Below, in pieces: positions 15,320 to 53,052 of a DNA stretch of 64,000 bases. The stretch lies in NCBI RefSeq assembly GCF_000422945.1, contig NZ_AUHA01000006.1, forward strand, positions 1-64,000. Reading direction: 5' to 3'. Below the pieces are notes generated by a model, which was given only the letters and a program-made list of their open reading frames with translations, made no database searches and was not told the origin of the DNA. The stretch comes from Daejeonella oryzae DSM 19973 (GTDB lineage Bacteria; Bacteroidota; Bacteroidia; Sphingobacteriales; Sphingobacteriaceae). The stretch's first letter is position 1. Each line of letters begins with the position of its first letter. Both the position numbers and the translations under genes were made by a program.

Positions 15320-17620
15320 TCAGAATGGATATCCGATAGCCAAATTAAAAACCAAATTATCTCTTCGCCATTGTTTATCTGCAAATTTAATCTGATCCAC
15401 TACCCAGCGATCTCCTTTTGGAAGCCAGGGCTTCCGCAGGGGGAAAGCAAGATCTGTACGCAGAACCAGGAAAGAAAGATCAAAGCGCAAACCAAAACCG
15501 GTTCCAACAGCAAGTTCACTTAAAAATTCTTTGCTGAATTTGGCCCCCGGCTTGTTGGGGTTTTCATTGAACAGCCAAATGTTACCCGCGTCCAGTAAAA
15601 GAGCTCCATGAACAATGCCGGCAAGTTTCTGGCGATATTCGGTATTAAATTCAAGCTTTAAATCTCCGGATTGATCTGGCAGGAAATTGTCGATACTTGA
15701 ATCATCCGGACGGTAAGTTCCAGGCCCCACAGAACGGGCCCTGAAAGCACGGATACTATTGCTACCGCCAATAAAAAATTGTTTGATAAAAGGAAGCTCT
15801 GAAGAGTTTCCGTAAGGGTAACCTAATCCAGCTATTAAACGACTGGCTATTTTTGAGTTTGTTCCTGTTTTAAAATAGTATCTCAGGTCTCCATCGATTT
15901 TTGCATACTGGGAATACCGTGCTCCGAATAATGTTGCCGTATCGCCTGTTGTATAATCTGCTTTCTGCAATAGTCCCAGAATGTTTCCCGCCAGATCTAC
16001 ATTTCCGTTGAAAAAAATATTGTTTTTACGGGTAACTTCCAGCTGATCATTATAAGTAAAAGAATATGTTGAACCTACGATGAATTGTTTTTCAATCGTT
16101 TTTGCAAGAGTAATATTGTTTCTAACACTATCGCTGTATAAAGGAGTAATATTGGCCGGCTGAACATAATTAAAGCTCAATAAATTCACTTCATGTTCTT
16201 TGCGAATATTTTCTTTCCAGTTGTATCCGGCAGATGCACGGAAGGAATTTAAAGAATAGAGTTTTCGTTTATTTAGGATTTCATACCCCAGAGTGAATTT
16301 AGAGCGGGGAACAAAAGCATTGGATGTGTTTACATCAAAAAATGGGATCAGAAAACGGGGTACAGAAAGAGTTGCTTCAGTTCCTGCACGGAAAGTGTTA
16401 TAACCCCTTTGTGTGCCGCTTACCTGCACTTCAAAACTTCCGTATCCTCTAATACTTAACTGTTCGGCGCCCCGGAATGCATTTCGATTTCTCCAGCTAA
16501 GCGATAATTCAGATCCTGTTAAATTATTTGATTTTGTAGTGCCTAAAACTTCAGCCCGCAACGATTTTTTGGGCAGGGGAGTGAGATAATAAAATGCGTC
16601 AAGCGAAGGATTACTCTGACTATCATTACGCTCAAAACGGTTTTTTACAAATTTGAAAGAACCCAGAGTTGTAAGGCGGCTTAAAGATAAGTTGTGATCT
16701 TTTCGATTATAGACTTCTCCGCTTTTAAAAAACATAGAGCGACTGAAAACGGATGGCTTGAATGTGCTGTCTTTATCAATTACATAATACCCGTCAAACA
16801 GAACCGCACTGCTTTTAGACGTGTCGGCCTGTGATTGTGCAAGGGTAAAATTAGGATATATATAAATGTCATCTATTGTATAAACTTTCCGGGCTAATGA
16901 CGGGGTTGAAGGTTTTACGGTTACATATAAATTTACTTTATGTTGCCCGATGGTACTATCTACACGAACAAATAAATAATCAGGACCGAAATAATAAAAC
17001 CCGTTTTCTTTTAAATTCTGATCAATACGGTCACGTTCACCTTTTATTACATCCAGGTTGTACGGATCATTAACCTTTAAAAGGGTTTTTGAGGCTGTTG
17101 CAGAAATTGCCTTTTCTAAAATACTGCTGTCCGAAGGAAAATTAACAGAACTAATAAGGTATCGCGGACCTAACTCTGCAATATATTCCGCCTTAACTTT
17201 ACTATTTTTTGAAATGGTATCACCGGTTACTACTGCCTGGAAATAACCTTTATTTTGAAGACGGTTTTGTAAAATATTCTGGTTATTCTGAAGATCAACA
17301 TAGCTAGCAAAAACAGGTGGTTCGCCTATTTTATTTTTTAGCCAGTTACGCAAACCTTTGGGTTTTTTAGGAGTTCCGGCAATATTAAAGGCAAAAAGCT
17401 TAGGCCTTAAACCCAAAATGGAGGTATTGGGTTTAGGACGCAATAATCCTTTTAATTCAGTGCGAAGTGCTTTTGTCTCTTTTTTCTTAATACTATCGCC
17501 TTCAATTTTTACATCACCGCCTATATATAACTTTTCGCCTTTTGGCAGATACTTTATATTGCTGCATGAGGCTATAATAAGTATTGCGAATAACCAGAAG
17601 TATTTAATCAGATTCAACAT
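15320..17620 (-). CDS. tamL: TamA-like Omp85 protein, lipoprotein subtype (TamL)
   Basis: A 766-residue outer-membrane protein of the Omp85/BamA superfamily. The N-terminus carries a lipobox (ILIIASCSNIKYLPKGEK), so it is probably lipidated; lipoprotein TamA relatives of Bacteroidota are called TamL. POTRA-like repeats occupy about residues 20-330 (for example LQNRLQNKGYFQAVVTGDT). The C-terminal half is a 16-strand barrel with the Omp85 signature near FFIGGSNSIRAFRARSVGPG and a terminal strand ending FNLAIGYPF. Its ATG overlaps the stop of tamB (TAATG), so the two are made as one unit for envelope lipid or protein transport. Confidence 0.88.
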   Translation of the reverse strand: MLNLIKYFWLFAILIIASCSNIKYLPKGEKLYIGGDVKIEGDSIKKKETKALRTELKGLLRPKPNTSILGLRPKLFAFNIAGTPKKPKGLRNWLKNKIGEPPVFASYVDLQNNQNILQNRLQNKGYFQAVVTGDTISKNSKVKAEYIAELGPRYLISSVNFPSDSSILEKAISATASKTLLKVNDPYNLDVIKGERDRIDQNLKENGFYYFGPDYLFVRVDSTIGQHKVNLYVTVKPSTPSLARKVYTIDDIYIYPNFTLAQSQADTSKSSAVLFDGYYVIDKDSTFKPSVFSRSMFFKSGEVYNRKDHNLSLSRLTTLGSFKFVKNRFERNDSQSNPSLDAFYYLTPLPKKSLRAEVLGTTKSNNLTGSELSLSWRNRNAFRGAEQLSIRGYGSFEVQVSGTQRGYNTFRAGTEATLSVPRFLIPFFDVNTSNAFVPRSKFTLGYEILNKRKLYSLNSFRASAGYNWKENIRKEHEVNLLSFNYVQPANITPLYSDSVRNNITLAKTIEKQFIVGSTYSFTYNDQLEVTRKNNIFFNGNVDLAGNILGLLQKADYTTGDTATLFGARYSQYAKIDGDLRYYFKTGTNSKIASRLIAGLGYPYGNSSELPFIKQFFIGGSNSIRAFRARSVGPGTYRPDDSSIDNFLPDQSGDLKLEFNTEYRQKLAGIVHGALLLDAGNIWLFNENPNKPGAKFSKEFLSELAVGTGFGLRFDLSFLVLRTDLAFPLRKPWLPKGDRWVVDQIKFADKQWRRDNLVFNLAIGYPF

Positions 17621-20600
17621 TAATTATCAATATTAACCACTTGTTTAGCTTCAATTTTTTCTTGCTTTTTACTTTCTTTTTCTAGTCTTCTGCGCCCTTT
17701 TTCCTCTTCTGTTTTGCGGGCGAATATTTCTTTGAATTGATTGTAATCTAGGGTGATGATAAAGCCTACCCCGGTTTCGATAAGGTATCCTTCAACAACT
17801 CCCTGGTATTCATTTTTTCGGTAAGCCCGTAGCATATAGCGGCCATCTTTCGAAAGCTGGTAATCAAGTGCTACGTTACCTGCTATATTATTTGAACTCT
17901 GATTTGAATTTCTTGGGCCTTCTAATTCAAAATTACTTCCGATACTAACTTTTAAGCGGTCGTTAAGAAGCCTTTTGGAAAGACCAACATTCAGATCTGT
18001 CCGGTTTTGCAAAGAACCTGTAGTATAATCTTCGGATGAAACCAGATCAAAATTCAGATCTACTCCTTCAATTAAGTTACCCGCCAAATTGTTCAACTGA
18101 TCGGACAAGATTTTGCTTACACTATTTCGAGCCATCGATTCAATTCCGCCGCCGCCTGCACTGCTGGCAAATGGATTTTCGGCAACAAAACGATTAAGTA
18201 ATAGCAGAGCGAACACCTGTTTATTTAATTCGGAGGGCTGTGATTCAAGTTGGGTAAGACGATACTGAACATTGTCCAATACATCGCGGGCAACATTATA
18301 GTTTTTGTTGGTTGGAAGTTCAATATCAAAAGTGATCTCCGGCTTCATTAATTCTCCTTTCATATTCAGAGATACTTCAAAAGGCAACTTTTGCTTGTAG
18401 CGGTTTAAAGAGGCAGCAGGCTCATCCAGCTGACTTTCCACCAGATCAATCGGAGCGGTGTTGGCAACATAGATTGCTGTAACATTTACATCTGCAGTTG
18501 TTGGTTCTCCCTGCCAGTTAATGGTACTTCCTTTTTCTATTTCAAAACGTCTTTTTATAAAATTGAAGGAAAGTTCATAGGCACCTTTTACCAATTGAAA
18601 TGCGCCGGTAAGATTTACTTTTCCGCTTGGGTCAATACCTGCAGTTAACTGTGCATCGCCTTGTACCTGCAGAAAATCGCCGTTGCCTTCATCAATAACA
18701 ATATTGAAAATTGCTGCAGAATCTACTTCAATATTAACGGCTACATCCATGCCGCTGATGGCCATTGTATTTAATGTATCCAAACCTGAAGTAAGAGCGC
18801 TTGCATTTTCAGGATTCGAAAAGTCAACAAATTCAACAATTCCTTCACGGGAAATTACGCCCGGATCGCTTTGCGGAACAACTACCGTAAAATTTGTTCC
18901 TTTATTAATCTTCACGCTGCCGTCCACTTCGGGGCTATTCATATCTCCGCGAATGCGTAAATCACTATTCAGGAATACATTTCCGTAAAATAATTTATTA
19001 TCTTTTTTAGTACTGCTTAAAACTTTAAAGTTTTCTGTTCTGGCTGTTAGTCCAAATCTGTAATCCAGGAAATTATTTGTAAAAACTGTACCGTCAACTA
19101 CTGCTTCATTACCTATAGAATCTACCAATGTAAATGAGTCAAACTGAATCCCATCTCTGGTAAAGGCGATTTTTTCCTCATCAATCGTATAATAGGAGTT
19201 TAACATAGAAATGTTAAATGCGGCCTTGTTAAAGTTAATGTCGCCCCGAACAGAAGGTACATCCGGAGAACCTGTTAATTTTAATTCACCACTAAGATTG
19301 CCGCTTGCATTTTTAATATTTCCCATAGATAAACCTTCCATAGTCGCCAGGTTTACGTTTCTGATATTCAGATCAAAATCGAATGTGCTTTTATTTTCAG
19401 GTCTCAGATAATATTCTCCATCCAGAAAAATATCATTTCCTTTTCCGGTTATATTTACTGTTGCCGCGTAGGTATTGGCTTCGCGATTATTAACCTTCAT
19501 GCTGATATCGCCCAGCGTATCGCTCCGGAAAGTGAAATCCTTAATATTCAGATCTCCAACAAATACCGGACTGCTTGCAAGGTTACTCAGGATTATGTTC
19601 CCGTTAATAGTCCCATCCGCTAAAAGTGAATCCTGTTCGGCAATTGCTGTAAGGGTTGCAATTTTAAAATTCGAAAAATCAACGCTGAGAGGAGCATTAA
19701 TCTGAGCCGGGTTACTGGTCACCGAGAGGTTTTGGTTGTTATTTGAAATGATGAAATCATTTGCCAAAATCCCTTTAGTGCCGAATTGAATGAAGTTTTG
19801 CGAAGATACAGCCCATTCTTCATAATTCATGAGCAAACCGCCCGGATTAAAACTAAAGCGGTATTGATCTGTGAAGGCTGATAATAATCCCGCAATGCGA
19901 TATTTATTTTTATCTGCCTGATCTTTAATGTTAAGATTTAAATCTAACTGATCATTTTTAGCACTGCCATCGAGACTGGTTTTATTTATTTGAATGGATG
20001 ATGTAGAAATGTTGTCGAGATTTAAACTGTAATTTAAAGCTGTTTTATCTGAATTTATATCCAGCAGTAAATTATTAATAGTATTCCCGTTGTAAATTAT
20101 TTTTGGAGCATTTGCTTCTAACGTTAAATTGCTTTGGGTGCTATTAAAAGATCCTTTGATGCTTACGGGTTCTAATCCTGTAAGTGCAGGCATAAATTCC
20201 TGAATTATTGGGCGGTTGGTTATGTTGGCTGTAAAAACGAAATCCTGTGCTGTACTTACCGGCAGCATTTTCCCATCGCCAATTTTAAAATGTCTGTTGA
20301 TTTCATTAAAAAGAATATTTCCGGTTTCTGTAAGTTTATAATTTCCGATAATAGAGGCAGTTAAAAATTCAGATCGAATTCTTAGATCTTTTTGGTTGCC
20401 ATTTACCGAAGCATCTACATTAATGCTGTCTAATTTATAGCGGTTTCCTTTTACAACAAGCAATAAATCAGAAGCTTTAATTGTTCCAATGAGCCGGTCG
20501 GGATCAGTGGATGGAAGGTCGGCAACAATTCTTCCGCGAAAGCGGAGATCTTCATTATATAAATTAAGTTTTTGAAAGTTGGCGCTATCCAGATCTAAAA

Positions 20601-22707
20601 CCAGGCTGACTGCAGGAAACGTATTTTTAATATTGGCCCTGGCTTTTAAATTAAACCGAAGATTCTGATCATTCATTTTTGCAGAAAGATTCACATTCTG
20701 GTTAGCGATGCTTCCGTTTAATCCCAGATTCTGGTAGGTATATCCATTTACGTCGGCCCTGCGGGATGTTCCGCTGAATTGGGCAGTCATATATTTTGGA
20801 TCCAACCCGGTTCCTGAAACTTTTGCATCAGCGGTAATCCGGCCAAGAGAGGCTTCCTGCTTTATCAGGCGTCCCGCATTAAAATTATTCAATTTTATAG
20901 CAGCATTAAAAGTTTCTCTGCCGGCACGGTTTCCGTTCTGTAAATTCCCGGCAATTTGAGCAGCACCATAACTAGAATTCAGGTTAAGGTTAGTTCTAAA
21001 ACTATTTATGCCGCCATTAAATTTTCCGGTAACATTAAAGGATTCGGGCAGGCGAATGTTTGCCGGTATAATGCCGGCCGATAAAAGTTGATTTAAATCA
21101 TCTCTGCTAGATTTAAACTCGCGAATATTTACATTAAAATTAGCCCGGTTCATGTCGGGTAACCCTGCTATATTGCCTGAGGCCTGTATTCGGGTATTTC
21201 TAAATCCTGTAATCCGGAGATTTGGTATAGTCATATTGCTTAAACTTCCTTTAACAGCTCCGTTAATATTCACAATTGCATTGGGATTATTTTTAAATGG
21301 ATCTACATCGGCAAGCAGCGGGACAAATGTTAATACATCTTTAAAAGATAACCGACTGTTTTCAAGATTAACATTCAGGCTCATTTTTCCGGGATCTTTA
21401 GCCAGCGCATCCAGGGATGGATAACCTATTCGTACATAATCACGCAAAGTTGATCCCGGCGTTTTGATATACAAATCCTCTAAAAGTGCACCTGTATTGC
21501 TGTAAATAAAATTAGTTTGAAGTTCGTTCAAGACAAAGCCATCCTTGTTTTTAAAACTTGCGTCAGCAATACTACCAGAAATTGTATCCAGACTATAAGA
21601 AAAATTATCTGCCTGCAGGTTTAAATCAGTTATTCCCAAATGCGCATAATCCATACCTTTTTTTAGAACCGGCATGTTAAAATCATCATACTTTAAATTG
21701 GTATTGCTGAAATCCGCATTTCCAATGGTCAGCCTCCAATCATTGTTCAACGTCGCTGTTGCTACTTTTTTGACCTCGGTAACTACAATTTTAGCCTGCT
21801 CTGACCTGCCCAGAATTACTTCTGATTTTGTATTGGATAATTTAAGATTTTTTAATGCTACCCTTTGTTTCTTAAGATTTATAGAATCTACATCGGCAAG
21901 TAGCTGACCCAAATCTAAATTGGTTTTTAAGCGGGAAATATCGTTTTGGTAATTGAGCTTTATTTTCGAAAGATCGATTGTTCCCAGCTTTAAATCCAGA
22001 TCAAAAGGTTCATTACTATCGGCTTCAACTTTCGCTGTGCTTTCCTGTTTAAGAGCCGGCTTGCTCTGAATGATATTTGCATTTAATCCAGATAATTTAA
22101 TATTTGGAATCGAAAATTTCATTTTATCCAAATCAAATTCCCGGATACGGGTATTAAAATGATTTAGTTGAAAACGGACATCATTCGCAGTAACCGCATC
22201 CTGAAAAGAAACATTTATCCGGTCGAGATTGATCTTGTCTAATGAGAATTTCATGGCGGCCGCAGAATCGGCTGGAGGAGCATTCTTGCTTTGTTCGGTA
22301 ATAAATGCCTTTAGGATGTAGTCGAAATTAAAGACACTGTCGGGCATTGTTCGCTGCACCTTAGCGGTTATTCCTCTGAGGTCGATTTCATTAATCTCAA
22401 CCTGATTTTTTAAAAGTTTTAATAAGCTGATATCTACTTTTAAAGTATCGCCAGCCAATAATGTATCTTGATTCTGATCTTCAAAATATACATCTTCCAA
22501 AACAATTAACTTAGGGAGATCAAGACTTAATTTTTTGATTTCAACCTTTGTTTTGAGTTTATTCTGCAAGAAAGAAACTGTTTTTTTGCGTGCAAAATCC
22601 TGAACGGCCGGAACCTGGATTAATACAAAAATAAGCAGCACCAAAAAAATGATACTGCCTGCAATCCATAAGAAAATCTTTAGTGCTAAAGTTGTTCCTT
22701 TATTCAA
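17620..22707 (-). CDS. tamB: TamB-like translocation/assembly module protein
   Basis: A 1695-residue AsmA/TamB-type bridge protein. One N-terminal transmembrane anchor (ALKIFLWIAGSIIFLVLLIF) is followed by a very long periplasmic beta-rich region, and the C-terminal TamB/DUF490 domain spans about residues 1220-1660 (including DFLQVQGDAQLTAGIDPSGK and EGVDLNFDLVSSEDY). Such proteins form hydrophobic grooves between the membranes and move phospholipids or assist outer-membrane protein assembly. A short charged tail (EEEKGRRRLEKESKKQEK) follows. The start codon is TTG at 22707; no in-frame ATG or GTG precedes it. The stop overlaps the tamL start. Confidence 0.9.
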   Translation of the reverse strand: MNKGTTLALKIFLWIAGSIIFLVLLIFVLIQVPAVQDFARKKTVSFLQNKLKTKVEIKKLSLDLPKLIVLEDVYFEDQNQDTLLAGDTLKVDISLLKLLKNQVEINEIDLRGITAKVQRTMPDSVFNFDYILKAFITEQSKNAPPADSAAAMKFSLDKINLDRINVSFQDAVTANDVRFQLNHFNTRIREFDLDKMKFSIPNIKLSGLNANIIQSKPALKQESTAKVEADSNEPFDLDLKLGTIDLSKIKLNYQNDISRLKTNLDLGQLLADVDSINLKKQRVALKNLKLSNTKSEVILGRSEQAKIVVTEVKKVATATLNNDWRLTIGNADFSNTNLKYDDFNMPVLKKGMDYAHLGITDLNLQADNFSYSLDTISGSIADASFKNKDGFVLNELQTNFIYSNTGALLEDLYIKTPGSTLRDYVRIGYPSLDALAKDPGKMSLNVNLENSRLSFKDVLTFVPLLADVDPFKNNPNAIVNINGAVKGSLSNMTIPNLRITGFRNTRIQASGNIAGLPDMNRANFNVNIREFKSSRDDLNQLLSAGIIPANIRLPESFNVTGKFNGGINSFRTNLNLNSSYGAAQIAGNLQNGNRAGRETFNAAIKLNNFNAGRLIKQEASLGRITADAKVSGTGLDPKYMTAQFSGTSRRADVNGYTYQNLGLNGSIANQNVNLSAKMNDQNLRFNLKARANIKNTFPAVSLVLDLDSANFQKLNLYNEDLRFRGRIVADLPSTDPDRLIGTIKASDLLLVVKGNRYKLDSINVDASVNGNQKDLRIRSEFLTASIIGNYKLTETGNILFNEINRHFKIGDGKMLPVSTAQDFVFTANITNRPIIQEFMPALTGLEPVSIKGSFNSTQSNLTLEANAPKIIYNGNTINNLLLDINSDKTALNYSLNLDNISTSSIQINKTSLDGSAKNDQLDLNLNIKDQADKNKYRIAGLLSAFTDQYRFSFNPGGLLMNYEEWAVSSQNFIQFGTKGILANDFIISNNNQNLSVTSNPAQINAPLSVDFSNFKIATLTAIAEQDSLLADGTINGNIILSNLASSPVFVGDLNIKDFTFRSDTLGDISMKVNNREANTYAATVNITGKGNDIFLDGEYYLRPENKSTFDFDLNIRNVNLATMEGLSMGNIKNASGNLSGELKLTGSPDVPSVRGDINFNKAAFNISMLNSYYTIDEEKIAFTRDGIQFDSFTLVDSIGNEAVVDGTVFTNNFLDYRFGLTARTENFKVLSSTKKDNKLFYGNVFLNSDLRIRGDMNSPEVDGSVKINKGTNFTVVVPQSDPGVISREGIVEFVDFSNPENASALTSGLDTLNTMAISGMDVAVNIEVDSAAIFNIVIDEGNGDFLQVQGDAQLTAGIDPSGKVNLTGAFQLVKGAYELSFNFIKRRFEIEKGSTINWQGEPTTADVNVTAIYVANTAPIDLVESQLDEPAASLNRYKQKLPFEVSLNMKGELMKPEITFDIELPTNKNYNVARDVLDNVQYRLTQLESQPSELNKQVFALLLLNRFVAENPFASSAGGGGIESMARNSVSKILSDQLNNLAGNLIEGVDLNFDLVSSEDYTTGSLQNRTDLNVGLSKRLLNDRLKVSIGSNFELEGPRNSNQSSNNIAGNVALDYQLSKDGRYMLRAYRKNEYQGVVEGYLIETGVGFIITLDYNQFKEIFARKTEEEKGRRRLEKESKKQEKIEAKQVVNIDN

Positions 22708-43259: not shown

Positions 43260-45230
43260 ATGAAAAAAAAATTACTTAAAGCCTTATGGTTTAAAAAACT
43301 TTTAATAAAATCATCACTCTTTCTGGTTCTTATTTCGTTGTGTTTTCAGAAAGATTTATCAGCTCAAACCGGATCAGTGGGAATCGGTACAGAAACACCC
43401 AATAGTAAATCCATTCTGGATGTAGTTTCTACAAATAAAGGAGTATTAGTTCCACGACTAACATTAGCTCAAAGAGATGCCTTGCAGGCTGACGGAGTTT
43501 CAAATACCGCTATCAATGGTTTATTAATATATAACTCTACTGCCAATCGTTTTAATTTCTGGCTTACAAATAAGTGGTACGATTTGTCTGATGGACCAAT
43601 GGGACCTCAGGGTTTAAAAGGTGATAAAGGAGATATTGGTGTGACCGGATCTATTGGTTTAACGGGTCTTCAGGGAATTCAGGGAATAAAAGGTGATCAG
43701 GGTGATGTTGGTGCAACGGGTCCGATTGGTTTAACCGGCCCACAAGGTGCTCAGGGTATTCAGGGAATTAAAGGCGACAAAGGTGATCAGGGTGATGTTG
43801 GTGCAACAGGTCCAATCGGCTTAACAGGTCCACAAGGAATTCAGGGAATTAAAGGTGATCAGGGAGAAGTTGGTGCAACCGGTCCCATTGGTTTAACCGG
43901 CCCACAAGGTGCTCAGGGAATACAGGGAGTTAAAGGCGACAAAGGTGATCAGGGTGATGTTGGTGCAACAGGTCCAATCGGCTTAACCGGTCCTCAGGGA
44001 ATTCAGGGAATTAAAGGTGACCAGGGAGATGTTGGTGCAACAGGTCCGATTGGTTTAACCGGCCCACAAGGTGCTCAGGGTATTCAGGGAATTAAAGGCG
44101 ACAAAGGTGATCAGGGTGATGTTGGTGCAACAGGTCCAATCGGCTTAACCGGTCCACAAGGAATTCAGGGAATTAAAGGTGATCAGGGAGAAGTTGGTGC
44201 AACCGGTCCCATTGGTTTAACCGGCCCGCAAGGTGCTCAGGGTATTCAGGGTTTAAAAGGAGATAAAGGTGATCAGGGTGATGTTGGTGCAACAGGTCCA
44301 ATCGGTTTAACCGGTCCTCAGGGAATTCAGGGAATAAAAGGTGACCAGGGAGAAGTTGGTGCAACTGGTCCGATTGGTTTAACCGGCCCGCAGGGTGCTC
44401 AGGGTATTCAGGGTTTAAAAGGAGATAAAGGTGATCAGGGTGATGTTGGTGCAACTGGCCCGATTGGCTTAACCGGTCCTCAAGGCCTTCAGGGTATTCA
44501 GGGATTAAAAGGAGATAAAGGTGATCAGGGTGATGTTGGAGCAACCGGCCCAATTGGTGCAACCGGACTTCAGGGACCCCAGGGTGATAAAGGAGATATA
44601 GGCTTAACCGGACCTCAGGGTGTTACGGGCAGCACTGGTCCCATTGGTCCTGCAGGTGCAACCGGCCCGGCTGGTCCTCAGGGAGCTGACGGAAATGTTG
44701 GTATACAAGGTCCTGTTGGCCCTGCTGGTCCTCAGGGAATTGCCGGTGCAGCCGGTGCTCAGGGTCCTGCCGGTCCTCAAGGTGCGCAAGGTGATACTAA
44801 TGGCTGGTTGAAAGTTGGTAATACAGCGACAATTCCGGGTACCGGAGTAGGACAGAATTATGTAGGTACTGCTGATCTACAGGATTTTGTATTGGCTTCT
44901 AACAGAAATGAACAACTTCGTTTACTTTCTTCAGGTGGAATCAGAATCGGGACAAATGGTACAGCTATCAATACAGTTATTAAAAATATCGCGGTAGCTG
45001 ATGTAAATTCAATTGCAGCCGGAACGTCAGGAACACAAACTTTTTCAATTGCAAATGCTCCTTTAACATCTGCTGTTAATGTAAGTCCGGGTACTGCTTT
45101 GCCAGATGGATTGATCATTTCGTATGCACGTGTTTCGGCAACCGGAACTGTTGAAGTGAAGTTTATGAATGTAAGCGGTTCTTCTATTGATTTACCATCA
45201 ATGAGTTTTTACATCACTGTAATTCAATAA
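43260..45230 (+). CDS. Collagen-like surface protein with tandem Gly-X-Y super-repeat
   Basis: A 656-residue secreted protein. The signal peptide ends near DLSAQ. Residues about 38-100 match a Bacteroidota N-terminal module ([19 protein letters not shown] and [15 protein letters not shown]) found on many surface and fibre proteins. Residues 112-512 are unbroken collagen Gly-X-Y triplets built from a 54-residue super-repeat. A C-terminal beta domain (about 514-656, ending [10 protein letters not shown]) may serve as the trimerisation head. No T9SS sorting signal is evident in it. It is the first gene of a four-gene operon; 2 bp separate it from the type B sorting gene. Confidence 0.88.
43647..44546 (+). 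repeat. 162-bp collagen super-repeat array
   Basis: Five in-register units start at 43719, 43881, 44043, 44205 and 44367, each 162 bp (54 residues). Each unit is a 30-residue block beginning [16 protein letters not shown] plus a 24-residue block beginning [17 protein letters not shown] lone 24-residue block precedes the array at 43647, and in the last unit the second block is replaced by another 30-residue block. Copies are nearly identical in DNA, implying recent expansion or homogenisation. Confidence 0.9.
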
Positions 45231-45232
45231 TT

Positions 45233-46441
45233 ATGTTTAAGAAAACCCTTTTATTCCTCAGCTTGTGCTGGAGTTTTCCCTACATAAGTACTGCTCAGGT
45301 TGTAAATACAGGCGCTTTGATTTCTTTAGAAAGTAATTCTCTTTTATTTATAGAGCAGGATTATACGCACACCGGAGGTTCTATAATTAACCACGGTCTA
45401 ATAAAAATTAAAGGTAACTGGTATAACAATGATGCAGCATCCTCAGTTTTTGATCTCCGTTCTGAAACTCCGGTGGAGTTAAATGGCGCTGTTCAAACTA
45501 TCGGAGGTGCTTATAAAACTACCTTTCCGGGTCTTAGTTTAACAGGCACAGGAAATAAGATGATGCTTACCAATGCTGAAGTACTTTCGGTACTATCTTT
45601 AAATGATAAGGAGTTGGCTGCAGATCAGTTTTCGATAACTGTACTTAATTCAAAACCTGAAGCGGTAACACGTTCAACCGGATTTGTGAGTACAGGTAAA
45701 AAAGGAAAATTTATACGGGTTACCAAGGCTGCAGGGAATTATTTATTTCCAATGGGCTCATCTCAGAATTCAGCGGTTTTGTATCGTCCGCTGGTGTTTG
45801 AAGCTCAGGCTGCTACCGAAAACAGGTATGCTGTAACTTTTACCAAAGGTGATCCAACATTAAGTGGATATAATGTCAATAATAAGCGTCAGGATATTCA
45901 AAACGTTTTTGACAAATACCTTTATGTAATTGATCAGCCTGCCGGATCTTCAAATACATCAATTAAATTTCATCAGAATAGTATTGTTGATGGAGAATTT
46001 AAACAGCTTGTTAACTGGAGCCCATTTCAATTATGGGAAAAAGCAGGACCTTCTACTGCAACAGACGGCGGATTTGGTGATAATTTAAACCGGACTATTT
46101 CTTTCGTTTCTACAAAAACTATCAAAAATACTCCCTTTACATTTGCGAATACCACATCGGATGTAAATGATCCCTTATCATTTTTCAATGCATTTTCTCC
46201 GGATGGGGATGGTAAAAACGACAAGTGGATTGTAAATAATCTGGATCTGTTTCCGAATAACGATTTAACAATTTTTAACCGTTGGGGAGATGAAGTTTTT
46301 AGAACCAAAAGTTATTCTTCCTCAAAAGCATGGGATGGCGGTAATATGAATCCTGGAACTTACTTCTATGTTTTAAATGTAAACATAGATGGTACTACTA
46401 AATCTTACAAAGGTTTTATTACCATGCTAAAGAAAAATTAA
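45233..46441 (+). CDS. Gliding motility-associated C-terminal domain protein (T9SS type B substrate)
   Basis: A 402-residue secreted protein with a signal peptide ending YISTAQ. Residues about 25-315 form a beta-rich passenger domain with no named family. The C-terminal 85 residues are a typical type B T9SS sorting domain: FFNAFSPDGDGKNDKWIV, then LTIFNRWGDEVF, and finally SYKGFITMLKK. Such proteins need a PorP/SprF partner for export; the next gene encodes one, 1 bp away. It may anchor to or assemble with the collagen-like protein, which is inference. Confidence 0.9.
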   Translation: MFKKTLLFLSLCWSFPYISTAQVVNTGALISLESNSLLFIEQDYTHTGGSIINHGLIKIKGNWYNNDAASSVFDLRSETPVELNGAVQTIGGAYKTTFPGLSLTGTGNKMMLTNAEVLSVLSLNDKELAADQFSITVLNSKPEAVTRSTGFVSTGKKGKFIRVTKAAGNYLFPMGSSQNSAVLYRPLVFEAQAATENRYAVTFTKGDPTLSGYNVNNKRQDIQNVFDKYLYVIDQPAGSSNTSIKFHQNSIVDGEFKQLVNWSPFQLWEKAGPSTATDGGFGDNLNRTISFVSTKTIKNTPFTFANTTSDVNDPLSFFNAFSPDGDGKNDKWIVNNLDLFPNNDLTIFNRWGDEVFRTKSYSSSKAWDGGNMNPGTYFYVLNVNIDGTTKSYKGFITMLKKN

Positions 46442-46442
46442 T

Positions 46443-47426
46443 ATGAAAAGAATTTTACTAACGCTTTTACTTTTCTGTATTATTCAGCTGGCAGCCAAAG
46501 CTCAGCAGGATGCACATTACAGTCAGTATATGTTTAACAGTTTGGTTATTAATCCTGCTTACGCAGGATATAAAGAAGCCTATAACCTGAGCTTATTAAA
46601 CCGAAATCAATGGGTTGGAATAGAAGGCGCCCCTAAAACACAATCGTTTATTGCAGACGGCGCTTTTTTTAAAGGTCAAAAGGTGGGATTGGGATTAGCC
46701 GTTGTTAATGATAAAATCGGCTTGCAGGGTACAACTTCGGCATATGCCAATTATGCTTATCGCTTGCCGGTAGGTAAAGATAATGCCCGGTTAGCTTTTG
46801 GACTGGCTTTAGGTGTAACTCAATATACACTTAATGGCAACTCGGCAGTTATTGAAGATCCCAATGATCCCAATTATAATGACGGCAGATTAAATTATAC
46901 TGCTCCGGATGCAAAATTTGGTTTGTTTTTTAGCAATGATAAGTTCTACGCTGGTGCTTCTGCAACAAATCTACTTTCTGAATCTCAGGATTACCAGGAA
47001 ACCGGACAGAGTGTAATTGCCCGTCAGGGAAGACATTATTTCTTAACTGCAGGATATTTGCTGGATCTGAATCCAACTTTAAAGTTTAAGCCTTCTTTTA
47101 TGATTCGGGATGATGCGAAGGGGCCAACCAATATTGACCTGAATACGTTCTTTTTAATCAAGGAAGCGGTTTGGGTTGGAGCATCTTATCGTACGGGAGC
47201 TTATTTTAAAAACAATCCGGATGTTGAGGCTAATTCTTTTAAGCAGAATTCTTTGGTGGGAGCTGTAGAATTATTTGTCGCTAAAAAATTCAGATTGGGA
47301 TATGCTTATGATTACGCACTTTCAGATTTAAGTTCGTATTCAAATGGAACTCACGAAATATCGTTGGGTTTAATATTACAATCCTCAAAAACTACTAATG
47401 CCTTACCAACGCCAAGGTATTTTTAA
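46443..47426 (+). CDS. PorP/SprF family type IX secretion membrane protein
   Basis: A 327-residue outer-membrane beta-barrel protein with a signal peptide ending LAAKAQ. The PorP/SprF signature follows directly: QQDAHYSQYMFNSLVINPAYAGYKE, and VNDKIGLQGTTSAYANYAYR later. The C-terminus LGYAYDYALSDLSSYSNGTHEISLGL is also typical. SprF-like proteins act with type B sorting-domain substrates, and the gene lies 1 bp after one. This protein is therefore the likely dedicated partner rather than the core PorP. Confidence 0.93.
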   Translation: MKRILLTLLLFCIIQLAAKAQQDAHYSQYMFNSLVINPAYAGYKEAYNLSLLNRNQWVGIEGAPKTQSFIADGAFFKGQKVGLGLAVVNDKIGLQGTTSAYANYAYRLPVGKDNARLAFGLALGVTQYTLNGNSAVIEDPNDPNYNDGRLNYTAPDAKFGLFFSNDKFYAGASATNLLSESQDYQETGQSVIARQGRHYFLTAGYLLDLNPTLKFKPSFMIRDDAKGPTNIDLNTFFLIKEAVWVGASYRTGAYFKNNPDVEANSFKQNSLVGAVELFVAKKFRLGYAYDYALSDLSSYSNGTHEISLGLILQSSKTTNALPTPRYF

Positions 47427-47438
47427 CGCCTCCAAACT

Positions 47439-49346
47439 ATGAAATTTTACAAAATTACGTTAACGCTCTCCGCTTGCTTATTGCTCTATTTTACACCTCA
47501 GCAGGCATTTTCTGATGATCTCCAAAAAGCGAATAAATACTATGAGCAGTATGATTATAAATATGCTATTGATCTTTATGAAAAAATAATACAAAAAAAA
47601 CCGGGTCTGGAAGTTGCCGAAAAACTGGCTAATTGTTATCGCTTTGTTAATAATACAGAAAAAGCTCAGTTGGCATATGCACGGGTGCTTTCTTATCCGC
47701 AAGCTGATCCGGTAAACTATAAATATTTTGCAGATGCATTAAAGCAAAACGGGAATTTTAATGATGCCAGGGTCAATTATTTAAAATACGCCGCACTGGT
47801 TCCAGAAAAATCAGCAGATGCCAATAAAATGGCTGTTGCCTGTGATTTTGCAAAGAACATGTCTGAGAATCCTAATAAGAATGTTTTTCTGAGTAATGAA
47901 TCCCCGTTAAATTCCGAGTATTCTGATTTTTCTCCGGTAAAATACGGCGAAAGTTATGTGTTTGTTTCTGACAGGGATGCCGGTTCTAAGGATAATGAAA
48001 TCTCCGGCTGGACAGGAAATCCATATCTTAAATTATTCGAAGCAGATTATCGTCAAAAAAATCCTTCCATCAACCGCTTGTCAGAAGAAATTAATAATCA
48101 GTATCACAATGGTCCGGCTGTATTTACTACTGATGGAAATGGTGTTTACTTCTCACGTACAGACGTTAATCGTGATAAAAAAACAAAAGGAATTAAAGTT
48201 GGATCAAAACAGATTTACTATTCTGCTAAAATAGATGGAAATTGGGGAACAGCTCAAATTTTACCTTTTAATAAAGATGGTAAATATTCGGTACAGCATC
48301 CTGCATTATCTGCAGATGGAAGCACATTATATTTTGCCTCTAATATGCCAGGCGGTTTTGGTGGGATGGATATCTATTCTTCCAGAAAACTGGAAAACGG
48401 AGAATGGTCTGAAGCTGTAAATTGCGGATCGGTTATCAATACTTCAGAAGATGAGGTTTTTCCTTCTGTAAATTCTGAGGGTAAATTCTATTTTTCTTCT
48501 AAAGGACATCAGGGCATGGGTGGTCTTGATTTATTTTCTGCTAAGGGGTCAAATAATTCATTTACTGAAATCACAAATCTTGCATCTCCAATGAATTCAA
48601 GCAAAGATGATTTTGGAGTCTTGTTTTTTAATGCTGATTCCGGATTTGTTTCTTCAAACCGAAATGGTGGAAAAGGCCTTGATGATATTTACAGATTTAG
48701 CGGGATGAATTACATGAAGCCTGTTCCTGTTTTTGTGCTGAATGGTTCTGTTACTGAAGAAAGTAACGGGATGCCGGTTAGTGGTGCTGAAATCTTATTA
48801 CATAATAAATTAACGGGTGCCGATAGTATTCTTAAATCTGATGCTTCTGGTAAATTTCAGTTCTCACTAAAGGAAAAATCAGAATATTTGGTTAAAGTAG
48901 ATGATACCCGCTTTTTATTAATTCCTGAGAAGCACATCAGCACCGGATCAGAATCTTCTGTTCAGGATGCCAATTTCCTGGTTAATAGAATTGAATTTGT
49001 TAAGCTGAACAATATTTATTACAACTTTAATAAATGGAACTTAAGACGTGATGCGTATTCAGAGCTCAACAAACTAAATGAGTTTTTACGCACCAATTCT
49101 GCTATTAACATCCAATTGAATTCACATACAGATGCTCGTGGTTCTGCAGCTTATAATCAGTGGCTTTCTCAAAAAAGAGCTCAGTCAGTGGTTAATTACC
49201 TTATTAAATTAGGTGTGAGTCCGCAACGATTAAAAGCAGCCGGTTTTGGTGAGACACAGCTGTTAAATAAATGTGCTGATGGTATTAACTGCACAGAAGC
49301 AGAACATCAGTTAAATCGGAGAACAGAGTTTAATGTTAAAAAATAG
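47439..49346 (+). CDS. OmpA family protein with TPR, propeller and carboxypeptidase-regulatory-like domains (PorE-like)
   Basis: A 635-residue envelope protein. After the signal peptide come TPR-like helices (about 25-125, QKANKYYEQYDYKYAIDLYEK), a PD40 beta-propeller (about 155-400, with ALSADGSTLYFASNMPGGFGGMDIY), a regulatory-like domain (about 425-510, GSVTEESNGMPVSGAEILL), and a C-terminal OmpA domain (about 525-635, LNSHTDARGSAAYNQWLSQKRA) that binds peptidoglycan. The same domain order is described for PorE, a T9SS anchor. It ends the collagen-like operon, followed by a strong terminator. Confidence 0.92.
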   Translation: MKFYKITLTLSACLLLYFTPQQAFSDDLQKANKYYEQYDYKYAIDLYEKIIQKKPGLEVAEKLANCYRFVNNTEKAQLAYARVLSYPQADPVNYKYFADALKQNGNFNDARVNYLKYAALVPEKSADANKMAVACDFAKNMSENPNKNVFLSNESPLNSEYSDFSPVKYGESYVFVSDRDAGSKDNEISGWTGNPYLKLFEADYRQKNPSINRLSEEINNQYHNGPAVFTTDGNGVYFSRTDVNRDKKTKGIKVGSKQIYYSAKIDGNWGTAQILPFNKDGKYSVQHPALSADGSTLYFASNMPGGFGGMDIYSSRKLENGEWSEAVNCGSVINTSEDEVFPSVNSEGKFYFSSKGHQGMGGLDLFSAKGSNNSFTEITNLASPMNSSKDDFGVLFFNADSGFVSSNRNGGKGLDDIYRFSGMNYMKPVPVFVLNGSVTEESNGMPVSGAEILLHNKLTGADSILKSDASGKFQFSLKEKSEYLVKVDDTRFLLIPEKHISTGSESSVQDANFLVNRIEFVKLNNIYYNFNKWNLRRDAYSELNKLNEFLRTNSAINIQLNSHTDARGSAAYNQWLSQKRAQSVVNYLIKLGVSPQRLKAAGFGETQLLNKCADGINCTEAEHQLNRRTEFNVKK

Positions 49347-49371
49347 AAGCCAATCCACGTATTGCTGAAAA

Positions 49372-49406
49372 CAAAAAGAGCCTCAATATTATTGAGGCTC
49401 TTTTTG
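49372..49406. terminator. Bidirectional terminator after the collagen-like operon
   Basis: CAAAAAGAGCCTCAAT and ATTGAGGCTCTTTTTG form a perfect 16-bp stem with a 3-nt loop; both arms end in A/T runs. It separates the operon from the convergent bcp gene. Confidence 0.92.
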
Positions 49407-49419
49407 TTGAAATCGGGAT

Positions 49420-49878
49420 TTAAAGCAATTCCAGAATTTGTTCTGAAGAGTTTTTAGTATCCACTTTATCAATGATCTTTTTTATTATTCCTTCTTTATC
49501 TATTATAAAGGTTTTGCGGGCAGTGCCCATGTACTTTTTGCCGTAAAGATTTTTTTCTACCCAAACGCCGTATGCTTCAACAATTTTCTTATCTGTATCT
49601 GCAATAAGCGTAAATGGCAATTCGTATTTGCTGATGAATTTCTGATGTGATTTTTCATCGTCTATGCTTACTCCAATTACCTCAAATCCCTTTTGCAGGA
49701 GAGATTGGTAGTTATCCCTGAAATTACAGGATTCAGCGGTACAGCCCGGCGTATTATCTTTAGGATAAAAATACAGGATCACTTCTTTGCCCAAAAAATT
49801 ACTCAATGAAACCGATTGTCCGTTTTGATCATTTGCAGTAAAGCCGGGAGCCTGATCACCTTCTTTTAATTCTGACAT
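49420..49878 (-). CDS. bcp: Thioredoxin-dependent thiol peroxidase (BCP/PrxQ)
   Basis: A 152-residue peroxiredoxin that reduces peroxides with thioredoxin. The peroxidatic cysteine is Cys46 in TPGCTAESC, with a resolving Cys51 five residues on, the alpha-type PrxQ pattern. The N-terminus LKEGDQAPGFTANDQNGQSV is typical. Cytoplasmic. The gene starts four bases after the end of the upstream M23 peptidase gene, so the two are probably cotranscribed. Confidence 0.95.
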   Translation of the reverse strand: MSELKEGDQAPGFTANDQNGQSVSLSNFLGKEVILYFYPKDNTPGCTAESCNFRDNYQSLLQKGFEVIGVSIDDEKSHQKFISKYELPFTLIADTDKKIVEAYGVWVEKNLYGKKYMGTARKTFIIDKEGIIKKIIDKVDTKNSSEQILELL

Positions 49879-52345: not shown

Positions 52346-52882
52346 CTACAGAACAGATATTCTTTTAATCACAGCCTCGTTCCCGGCAACCACCCGGACA
52401 AAATAAAATCCGCTGCTTAGCTTTGATGCAATATTAAATGAGTTGGTTTGTTCGCCGGCAGCTATGTGTTCAGAAAGAAGGGTTAAAATTTCATTGCCGA
52501 GCACATCCATAATCTTGATGCTGATATTAGAATCCTTATTTACTTTATAGCTTAAGTTTAGCTGATCAGAAACCGGATTGGGATACACTTTAACATTGGT
52601 GATCACTTTATCATCACTTGTATCAACCTTTATAGCAACAGGTAAAGAGGATGTATTTCCAAAAATCTTATCAACCGTAGGTTTAAACGGCACAAAATTT
52701 ACTTTTACACCATTTTTAAGATATGCAGGTTTGTTGGATCTTGTATCTGTAATTTTTGTTTTTGAGGTTTTGGTAGAATCACCAGTGCTTTGACGAATAT
52801 CTGCATGAGCAATACCCGTACCAGGCACAAACACGCCGGTAACGAAAAATATTACTAAATAGTACAGGTATTTGTGCTTCAT
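52346..52882 (-). CDS. Small secreted protein with T9SS type A sorting domain
   Basis: A 178-residue secreted protein. ATG at 52882 is preferred to the TTG that opens the frame, since it begins the signal peptide (MKHKYLYYLVIFFVTGVFVP). The mature N-terminal part is a short, Ser/Thr/Lys-rich stretch without a domain. The C-terminal 80 residues are a type A sorting domain: VKVYPNPVSDQLNLSYKV, ISIKIMDVLGNEI, and GFYFVRVVAGNEAVIKRISV. Nearly the whole protein is thus sorting signal with little passenger, which is unusual. Not obviously in an operon. Confidence 0.86.
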   Translation of the reverse strand: MKHKYLYYLVIFFVTGVFVPGTGIAHADIRQSTGDSTKTSKTKITDTRSNKPAYLKNGVKVNFVPFKPTVDKIFGNTSSLPVAIKVDTSDDKVITNVKVYPNPVSDQLNLSYKVNKDSNISIKIMDVLGNEILTLLSEHIAAGEQTNSFNIASKLSSGFYFVRVVAGNEAVIKRISVL

Positions 52883-53052
52883 ATTTATGATCAATTACAA
52901 AAATATAAATAATTAAGCTATACTTTAATACTCAATTATTGCATTCAATGTTTTTAACATAATTTAACATTCCTTCTCAGAGCACATCAAATTTTCGAAT
53001 TTTTTAAAATTTAATTAAGATATATGAATAAAATATTGTGGTGCTAAGATTG

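Follow-up and report, generated by a model that had tools for sequence, protein, structure and literature searches.

In Porphyromonas gingivalis, the type B protein PG1035, a substrate of the type IX secretion system (T9SS), binds PorP, PorP binds PorE, and PorE binds peptidoglycan; in Flavobacterium johnsoniae, six porP-like genes adjoin porE-like genes (PMC9143113). An F. johnsoniae type B protein with a PorE homologue in its operon forms static foci, five such operons are reported, and type B proteins themselves are described as known or predicted adhesins (PMC12618676). In the gliding pair SprB/SprF, too, a type B substrate has a dedicated carrier, and SprF is disulfide-bonded to GldK (PMC12635249). 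Here we describe a locus of Daejeonella oryzae DSM 19973 (GCF_000422945.1; genome of 3.45 Mb, 99.48% complete) in which a gene for a collagen-like protein precedes genes for a type B protein, a PorP/SprF-family protein and a PorE-like protein. It lies within positions 1-64,000 of contig NZ_AUHA01000006.1, the stretch examined, hereafter called the window. What is new is the pair formed by the collagen-like fibre and the N-terminal part of the type B protein, not the four-gene operon.

The four open reading frames are all on the plus strand (43260-45230, 45233-46441, 46443-47426 and 47439-49346) and are separated by 2, 1 and 12 bp, exactly as given in the original prediction, which had been made from the letters of this DNA. 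Their parts and the adjoining hairpin are the following.

43260 to 43364, plus strand: signal-peptide-like N-terminus of the fibre protein (gene 1), ending LSA/Q, by inspection of the translation.
43371 to 43598, plus strand: conserved fibre N-domain (Nd), invariant at 13 alignment columns across 23 cassette sequences.
43593 to 44798, plus strand: collagen-like shaft of 134 uninterrupted Gly-X-Y triplets (PF01391, 1.4e-64; triplet count; tandem repeats).
44928 to 45227, plus strand: conserved C-terminal domain of the fibre (Cd), all-beta by prediction (28-sequence alignment; weak structural resemblance to the ends of phage tailspikes).
45233 to 46153, plus strand: signal-peptide-like start and N-terminal part of the type B protein (gene 2), here called the mount (alignment of 30).
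46163 to 46438, plus strand: type B T9SS sorting domain, the C-terminal domain (CTD) of gene 2 (PF13585 and TIGR04131 over cut-off; alignment of 24).
46443 to 47426, plus strand: outer-membrane carrier of the PorP/SprF family (gene 3), with a PRYF tail and no Cys (TIGR03519, 283.2 bits, cut-off 90.55).
47439 to 49346, plus strand: PorE-like TPR-PD40-CarboxypepD_reg-OmpA protein (gene 4), the presumed peptidoglycan anchor (Pfam and NCBIfam).
49370 to 49408, no strand: 18-bp hairpin, a likely bidirectional terminator (-25.4 kcal/mol, z -7.35), facing a convergent gene at 49420-49878.

The alignments used 30 of 31 stretches for the mount, 28 of 29 for Cd, 23 of 27 for Nd and 24 of 31 for the type B CTD. 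Collagen-profile matches were confined to gene 1 in the whole genome, where it was also the single Nd match. Its shaft DNA consists of 5.4 copies of a 162-bp repeat with 91% matches and, with a collagen rise of 0.286 nm per residue, the shaft would be about 115 nm long. The protein had been described as collagen-like and lacking a sorting signal of its own, and Pfam and NCBIfam scans indeed recognised no type A or type B sorting domain in it; Collagen was its sole Pfam match at E<=0.01, and no YadA anchor barrel was present. Gene 2 has the features of a type B substrate, namely a sorting domain over cut-off (CHU_C, PF13585, 1.2e-22; TIGR04131, 43.2 bits, cut-off 35) and a PorP/SprF gene 1 bp away, and for its mount region no Pfam match exceeded the cut-off. 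In gene 4, OmpA and PD40 exceeded their cut-offs, CarboxypepD_reg reached 31.0 of 32.3 and TPR_19 18.5 of 25, and the nearest NCBIfam models were CHU_0125_OmpA (451 of 620 needed) and PorE (NF052230, 392.4 of 600). The name PorE-like is therefore right, and plain PorE would be too strong. The CHU_0125/PorE-like profile had two full-length matches in this genome, one being gene 4; the second (G000:C2:568032-569900) is on a contig with no PorP match. Three PorP matches were found in the genome; both of those outside the cassette lie downstream of a type B gene, and the short stretches read around them showed neither a PorE-like nor a fibre gene.

The four genes are likely one transcript, because the gaps are tiny, the order is kept in relatives, the upstream neighbour (read as part of a transketolase from its sequence) is divergent, and the hairpin follows the last gene. 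The original prediction had called a single transcript nearly certain. A promoter scan found sites no commoner than in shuffles (29 versus 31.8), and the accompanying terminator scan did not report the hairpin at 49370-49408.

Compared with the described systems, the last three genes look familiar. The PorE-PorP-PG1035 complex is the same chain from a type B protein through PorP and PorE to peptidoglycan, and no fibre subunit is reported for it in the accessible portion of the source (PMC9143113). The five PorE-type B-SprF operons that include Fjoh_3952-3951-3950 have the same three-gene set and static surface foci; the accessible part of their account mentions no fibre gene (PMC12618676). SprB/SprF differs in its carrier, in that the Cys-X-Cys tail of SprF is bound to GldK and SprB moves, whereas the cassette PorP is Cys-free and ends in PRYF (PMC12635249). 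The expectation that a type B protein needs a cognate PorP/SprF protein, and the peptidoglycan anchor that the set brings along, fit the complexes as far as these papers present them (PMC9143113, PMC12618676). No link between collagen or another fibre and type B sets was described in the open-licence literature, as covered by titles, abstract starts and best matches. The collagen-repeat proteins of Cardinium belong, in the text available, to symbionts without a predicted T9SS (PMC12560110). The idea of a new extracellular fibre system thus survives in part: fibre and mount are new and may form such a system, and the combination of type B, PorP and PorE-like proteins had already been described.

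Conserved gene neighbourhood carries the association of fibre and mount. Among 251 genomes of the family, Cd matches were present in 37 and the mount part in 32. Besides the window, 31 family loci with a mount were identified, one of which (L102, genome G148) starts inside the type B gene at a contig end, leaving 30 for counting; the weak mount matches G011:C4, G048:C16 and G153 were outside the survey. In all 30, PorP and PorE-like genes accompany the type B gene, mostly overlapping slightly or less than 20 bp apart (in L093 the gaps are 162 and 106 bp, and some larger negative gaps are an artefact of start-codon choice in the script). An upstream fibre gene with Nd or Cd sequence occurs in 29 of the 30, the nearest gap being at most 46 bp, and the remaining locus, L096, has two YadA-repeat-like fibre genes upstream instead. 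Cd fibres were found in 27 of these loci and, with the window, in 28. The transketolase gene of the window is present in the fetched stretch of all 28, and a peroxiredoxin gene in 13 (the sequence fetched there was often short), a shared neighbourhood that fits one ancestral site.

Fibre length in these 28 loci ranges from 238 to 1066 aa, versus 393-415 aa for type B, 319-348 aa for PorP and 635-717 aa for PorE-like proteins. Seventeen loci have between 12 and 162 Gly-X-Y triplets and the other 11 lack them; ten of the latter form one shaftless clade (238-263 aa, Cd kept), and the eleventh, L077, bears a different repeat. A tree of the type B, PorP and PorE-like genes needs no more than two shaft-class changes. 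The fibre ends are conserved and mainly the shaft varies, collagen being one of several shafts. The L093 fibre has a sub-threshold YadA_head match, and in three of ten fibres scanned, these three being from outside the family, Peptidase_S74, the chaperone domain of phage endosialidases, follows the collagen shaft. S74 and YadA_head are signs of homotrimers in the relatives, and the collagen sign is the one that the window protein itself bears.

We also examined mounts beyond the family. The mount profile matched in 76 of 395 genomes of a phylum search, many of these matches being partial and to very long proteins, and in 230 of 395 genomes of a class search at E<=1e-6. For the class, a prediction was fixed before neighbours were viewed, in groups A (frames of 380-500 aa, n=36), B (570-660 aa, n=20) and C (n=20). 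Group A comprised 36 of the 38 matches listed, outside three earlier genomes (G789:C38, with an internal stop, and G874:C170 were left out); groups B and C were hand-picked. Among the 17 group A loci inspected were fibres whose GIGT start had diverged and which were often downstream. A widened rule accepted a GIGT..P start, Nd, at least 12 triplets or S74 on the same strand and no more than 1.5 kb upstream or downstream; the S74 labels of class loci came from a three-row profile of our own and their type A-like labels from a five-row one. Under this rule, a fibre neighbour was present in 22/36 (A), 5/20 (B) and 11/20 (C), or 38/76 in all, versus none of 59 type B loci without a mount part (0/18 and 0/41, S74 included) and 2/494 background frames. 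The difference from the controls has a Fisher p of 1.6e-12 with kinship ignored, and 14 of the 22 families contribute positives, as do 34 of the 64 genomes. Two controls, L216 and L219, overlap and were counted twice; at least 1 kb of upstream sequence was available in 12/18 and 26/41 controls, and with these alone the comparison is 0/38 versus 38/76 (p 5.5e-9). Among 20 hand-picked phylum loci, 12 had a fibre neighbour by the same rule. In the 12 loci whose mount has a type B domain, including L194 from the PorP sample described below, an upstream Nd fibre was found in nine, four of them collagenous; L194 was the sole mount-type locus of the PorP sample and likewise the sole one with an upstream Nd fibre.

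A type B domain was not found in nine other phylum mounts (L154 is cut by its stretch), and fibres also adjoin some mounts of this kind. Five mounts were scanned for a type A domain, which was over cut-off in L158, below it in L151, L165 and L170, and absent in L152. In L158, L261, L263 and L264 the mount part is fused to a type A-like sorting domain, and Nd or collagen genes lie next to it. In L285-L287, two collagen-like Nd fibre genes (383-385 and 575-836 aa) lie before the mount, the PorP lacks PRYF and no PorE-like gene was seen in the stretch, and in L274-L276, L278, L279, L281 and L282 (family code f92) the fibre gene is 4-22 bp downstream of the mount and no PorP or PorE-like gene was labelled.

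Gene neighbourhood gives strong support to a connection of the fibre with the type B protein, which may carry or tether it as proposed. On the wider scale it is fibre and mount that go together, including in loci that lack PorP and PorE-like genes or have type A-like signals. The full order of four genes is characteristic of the family. A survey of this order, as originally suggested, finds it kept in the family and not general in class loci, and a general four-gene rule was rejected, the strict prediction and the PorP/PorE order having failed in most of them.

The carrier tail was compared in 60 loci from the phylum search, excluding four PorP frames fused to other sequence. The 31 cassette PorPs, window included, end in PRYF (29) or PRYY (2), all have Cys-free last 40 residues, and gene 3 is without the gliding-type Cys-X-Cys tail of SprF. 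In the phylum sample, a PR[YF]F end (47403-47426 in the window) was found in 19/22 PorPs with a downstream PorE-like gene versus 1/34 without, and Cys in the last 14 residues in 3/22 and 21/34, respectively. This suggests that the cysteine-free, PRYF-tailed carriers of this lineage are static and wall-bound, and the PR[YF]F end is lineage-limited and may mark a PorE contact site. As a general rule the PRYF tail was rejected on class loci (see below). Searching the literature for PRYF in combination with PorP gave no result.

These observations make it fairly probable that the four genes form a unit that displays a homotrimeric collagen-like fibre statically on the cell surface. Gene 1 would supply the fibre, with an N-terminal domain, a triple-helical collagen shaft and a C-terminal cap, and would trimerise. 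The mount of gene 2, a short type B substrate, would be the surface base of the fibre, binding it most likely through Nd; we place Nd at the base because it is kept with both Cd and S74 endings. Gene 3 would receive the mount from the SprA translocon and retain it in the outer membrane, and gene 4 would tie gene 3 to peptidoglycan, keeping the fibre static and off the gliding track. The fibre would presumably serve in adhesion. Distance-matrix tests, with 24 of the 28 loci, gave partial r of 0.26 and 0.28 between the fibre ends and the mount, and did not separate Nd from Cd as the mount-binding end.

Several results weigh against this picture. The coupling of fibre and mount was no stronger than that of fibre and PorP (0.30 and 0.43), and fibre-like Nd or Cd genes occur without a mount gene in the fetched stretch of L103, L105 and L107-L111. 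The strict prediction, an Nd gene nearest upstream, held in 6/36 group A loci (six of the 36 had less than 1 kb upstream), and PorP and PorE-like genes were downstream in 7/36, though 32/36 have a type B domain. The rule was widened after the group A neighbours had been read, and then applied equally to the controls; even so, group B, with its longer mounts, had few fibre neighbours. A PR[YF]F end was found in none of nine PorE-linked PorPs of class loci. The single-sequence AlphaFold2 model of the mount was unusable (predicted local distance difference test, pLDDT, 33). Finally, SprA, present in 38 of 38 genomes given and once in the home genome, permits T9SS export without proving it, and is probably near-universal in the family and hence weak evidence.

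With regard to export, we tentatively favour, as a possibility, that the fibre exits together with the mount through the SprA pore, because the fibre and mount genes are kept adjacent and no other exporter is present among the four. A broader reading seems conceivable, if rather doubtful: a dedicated T9SS display of homotrimeric fibres, in which a signal-less fibre is carried by its mount via SprA and shafts are exchangeable on a fixed base, as a Bacteroidota counterpart of trimeric autotransporters.

Alternatively, the fibre may itself be a T9SS substrate, in which case Cd would be a sorting signal that escapes recognition and that the same carrier reads; Cd does form the very C-terminus and persists even in the shaftless versions of 238-263 aa. 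We consider this unlikely, as no type A or type B domain was matched, three outside-family fibres end in S74, and hhalign comparison of Cd with type B and type A CTD profiles showed no similarity (a weak test, type A versus type B itself giving 3%). A low-confidence Cd model that resembles a tailspike cap also speaks against it. This single-sequence AlphaFold2 model (pLDDT 52) has six strands, and its best structural match, with that pLDDT in mind, was 9qrm/6tku (Z 7.9, root-mean-square deviation 2.6 A, 84 residues), the C-terminal part of Klebsiella phage depolymerase KP32gp38, with dUTPases close behind and filling much of the list. Foldseek returned nothing reaching E 0.001 for the model, and solved structures searched with the Cd and mount profiles gave no convincing match (nothing in one search, one antibody at E 0.87 in another, and one chance-like match at E<=10 in a third). 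The resemblance of Cd to a phage tailspike cap is a lead only.

A further alternative, that the fibre is exported by another route and captured outside by the mount, would suit its signal-peptide-like start and lack of a recognised CTD; it appears improbable, given that the four genes include no other exporter and that their tight coupling suggests joint assembly. That an ordinary type B/PorP/PorE operon merely sits beside an unrelated collagen gene is very improbable: fibre-less sets are common (21/22 PorE-linked sets of the PorP sample lack a mount part, none of them with a fibre neighbour), whereas an upstream fibre occurs in 29/30 family loci versus 0/59 controls, and the transketolase neighbourhood is common to 28.

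If the fibre is indeed displayed on the mount, a type B protein would act as the base plate for a separate fibre without a T9SS signal. The range of T9SS display would be widened, carried-along export would become a testable question, and the widespread mount region, unmatched in Pfam, would gain a function.

Phage tail fibres of the collagen-like and S74 types and trimeric autotransporters have similar shaft types (collagen, and YadA-like in the relatives of the cassette), and S74 occurs in those relatives as well. The cassette fibre differs from phage fibres in having a signal-peptide-like start and no virion, and from trimeric autotransporters in having no YadA anchor match and a separate T9SS mount. 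A phage origin of the fibre was rejected: a tblastn search of 50,697 phage records with Cd found nothing at E<=1. Similarity of the shaft to many phage families arises via its Gly-X-Y repeats, Nd had marginal matches only against PHROG, and IMG/VR scans gave one and three loci.

Two other parts of the window may be mentioned. A 182-aa protein encoded at 52346-52894 on the minus strand has a type A sorting domain (PF18962, 4.6e-15) as its sole Pfam match at E<=1e-5, and at 15320-22707, also on the minus strand, an Omp85-superfamily protein adjoins a TamB protein.

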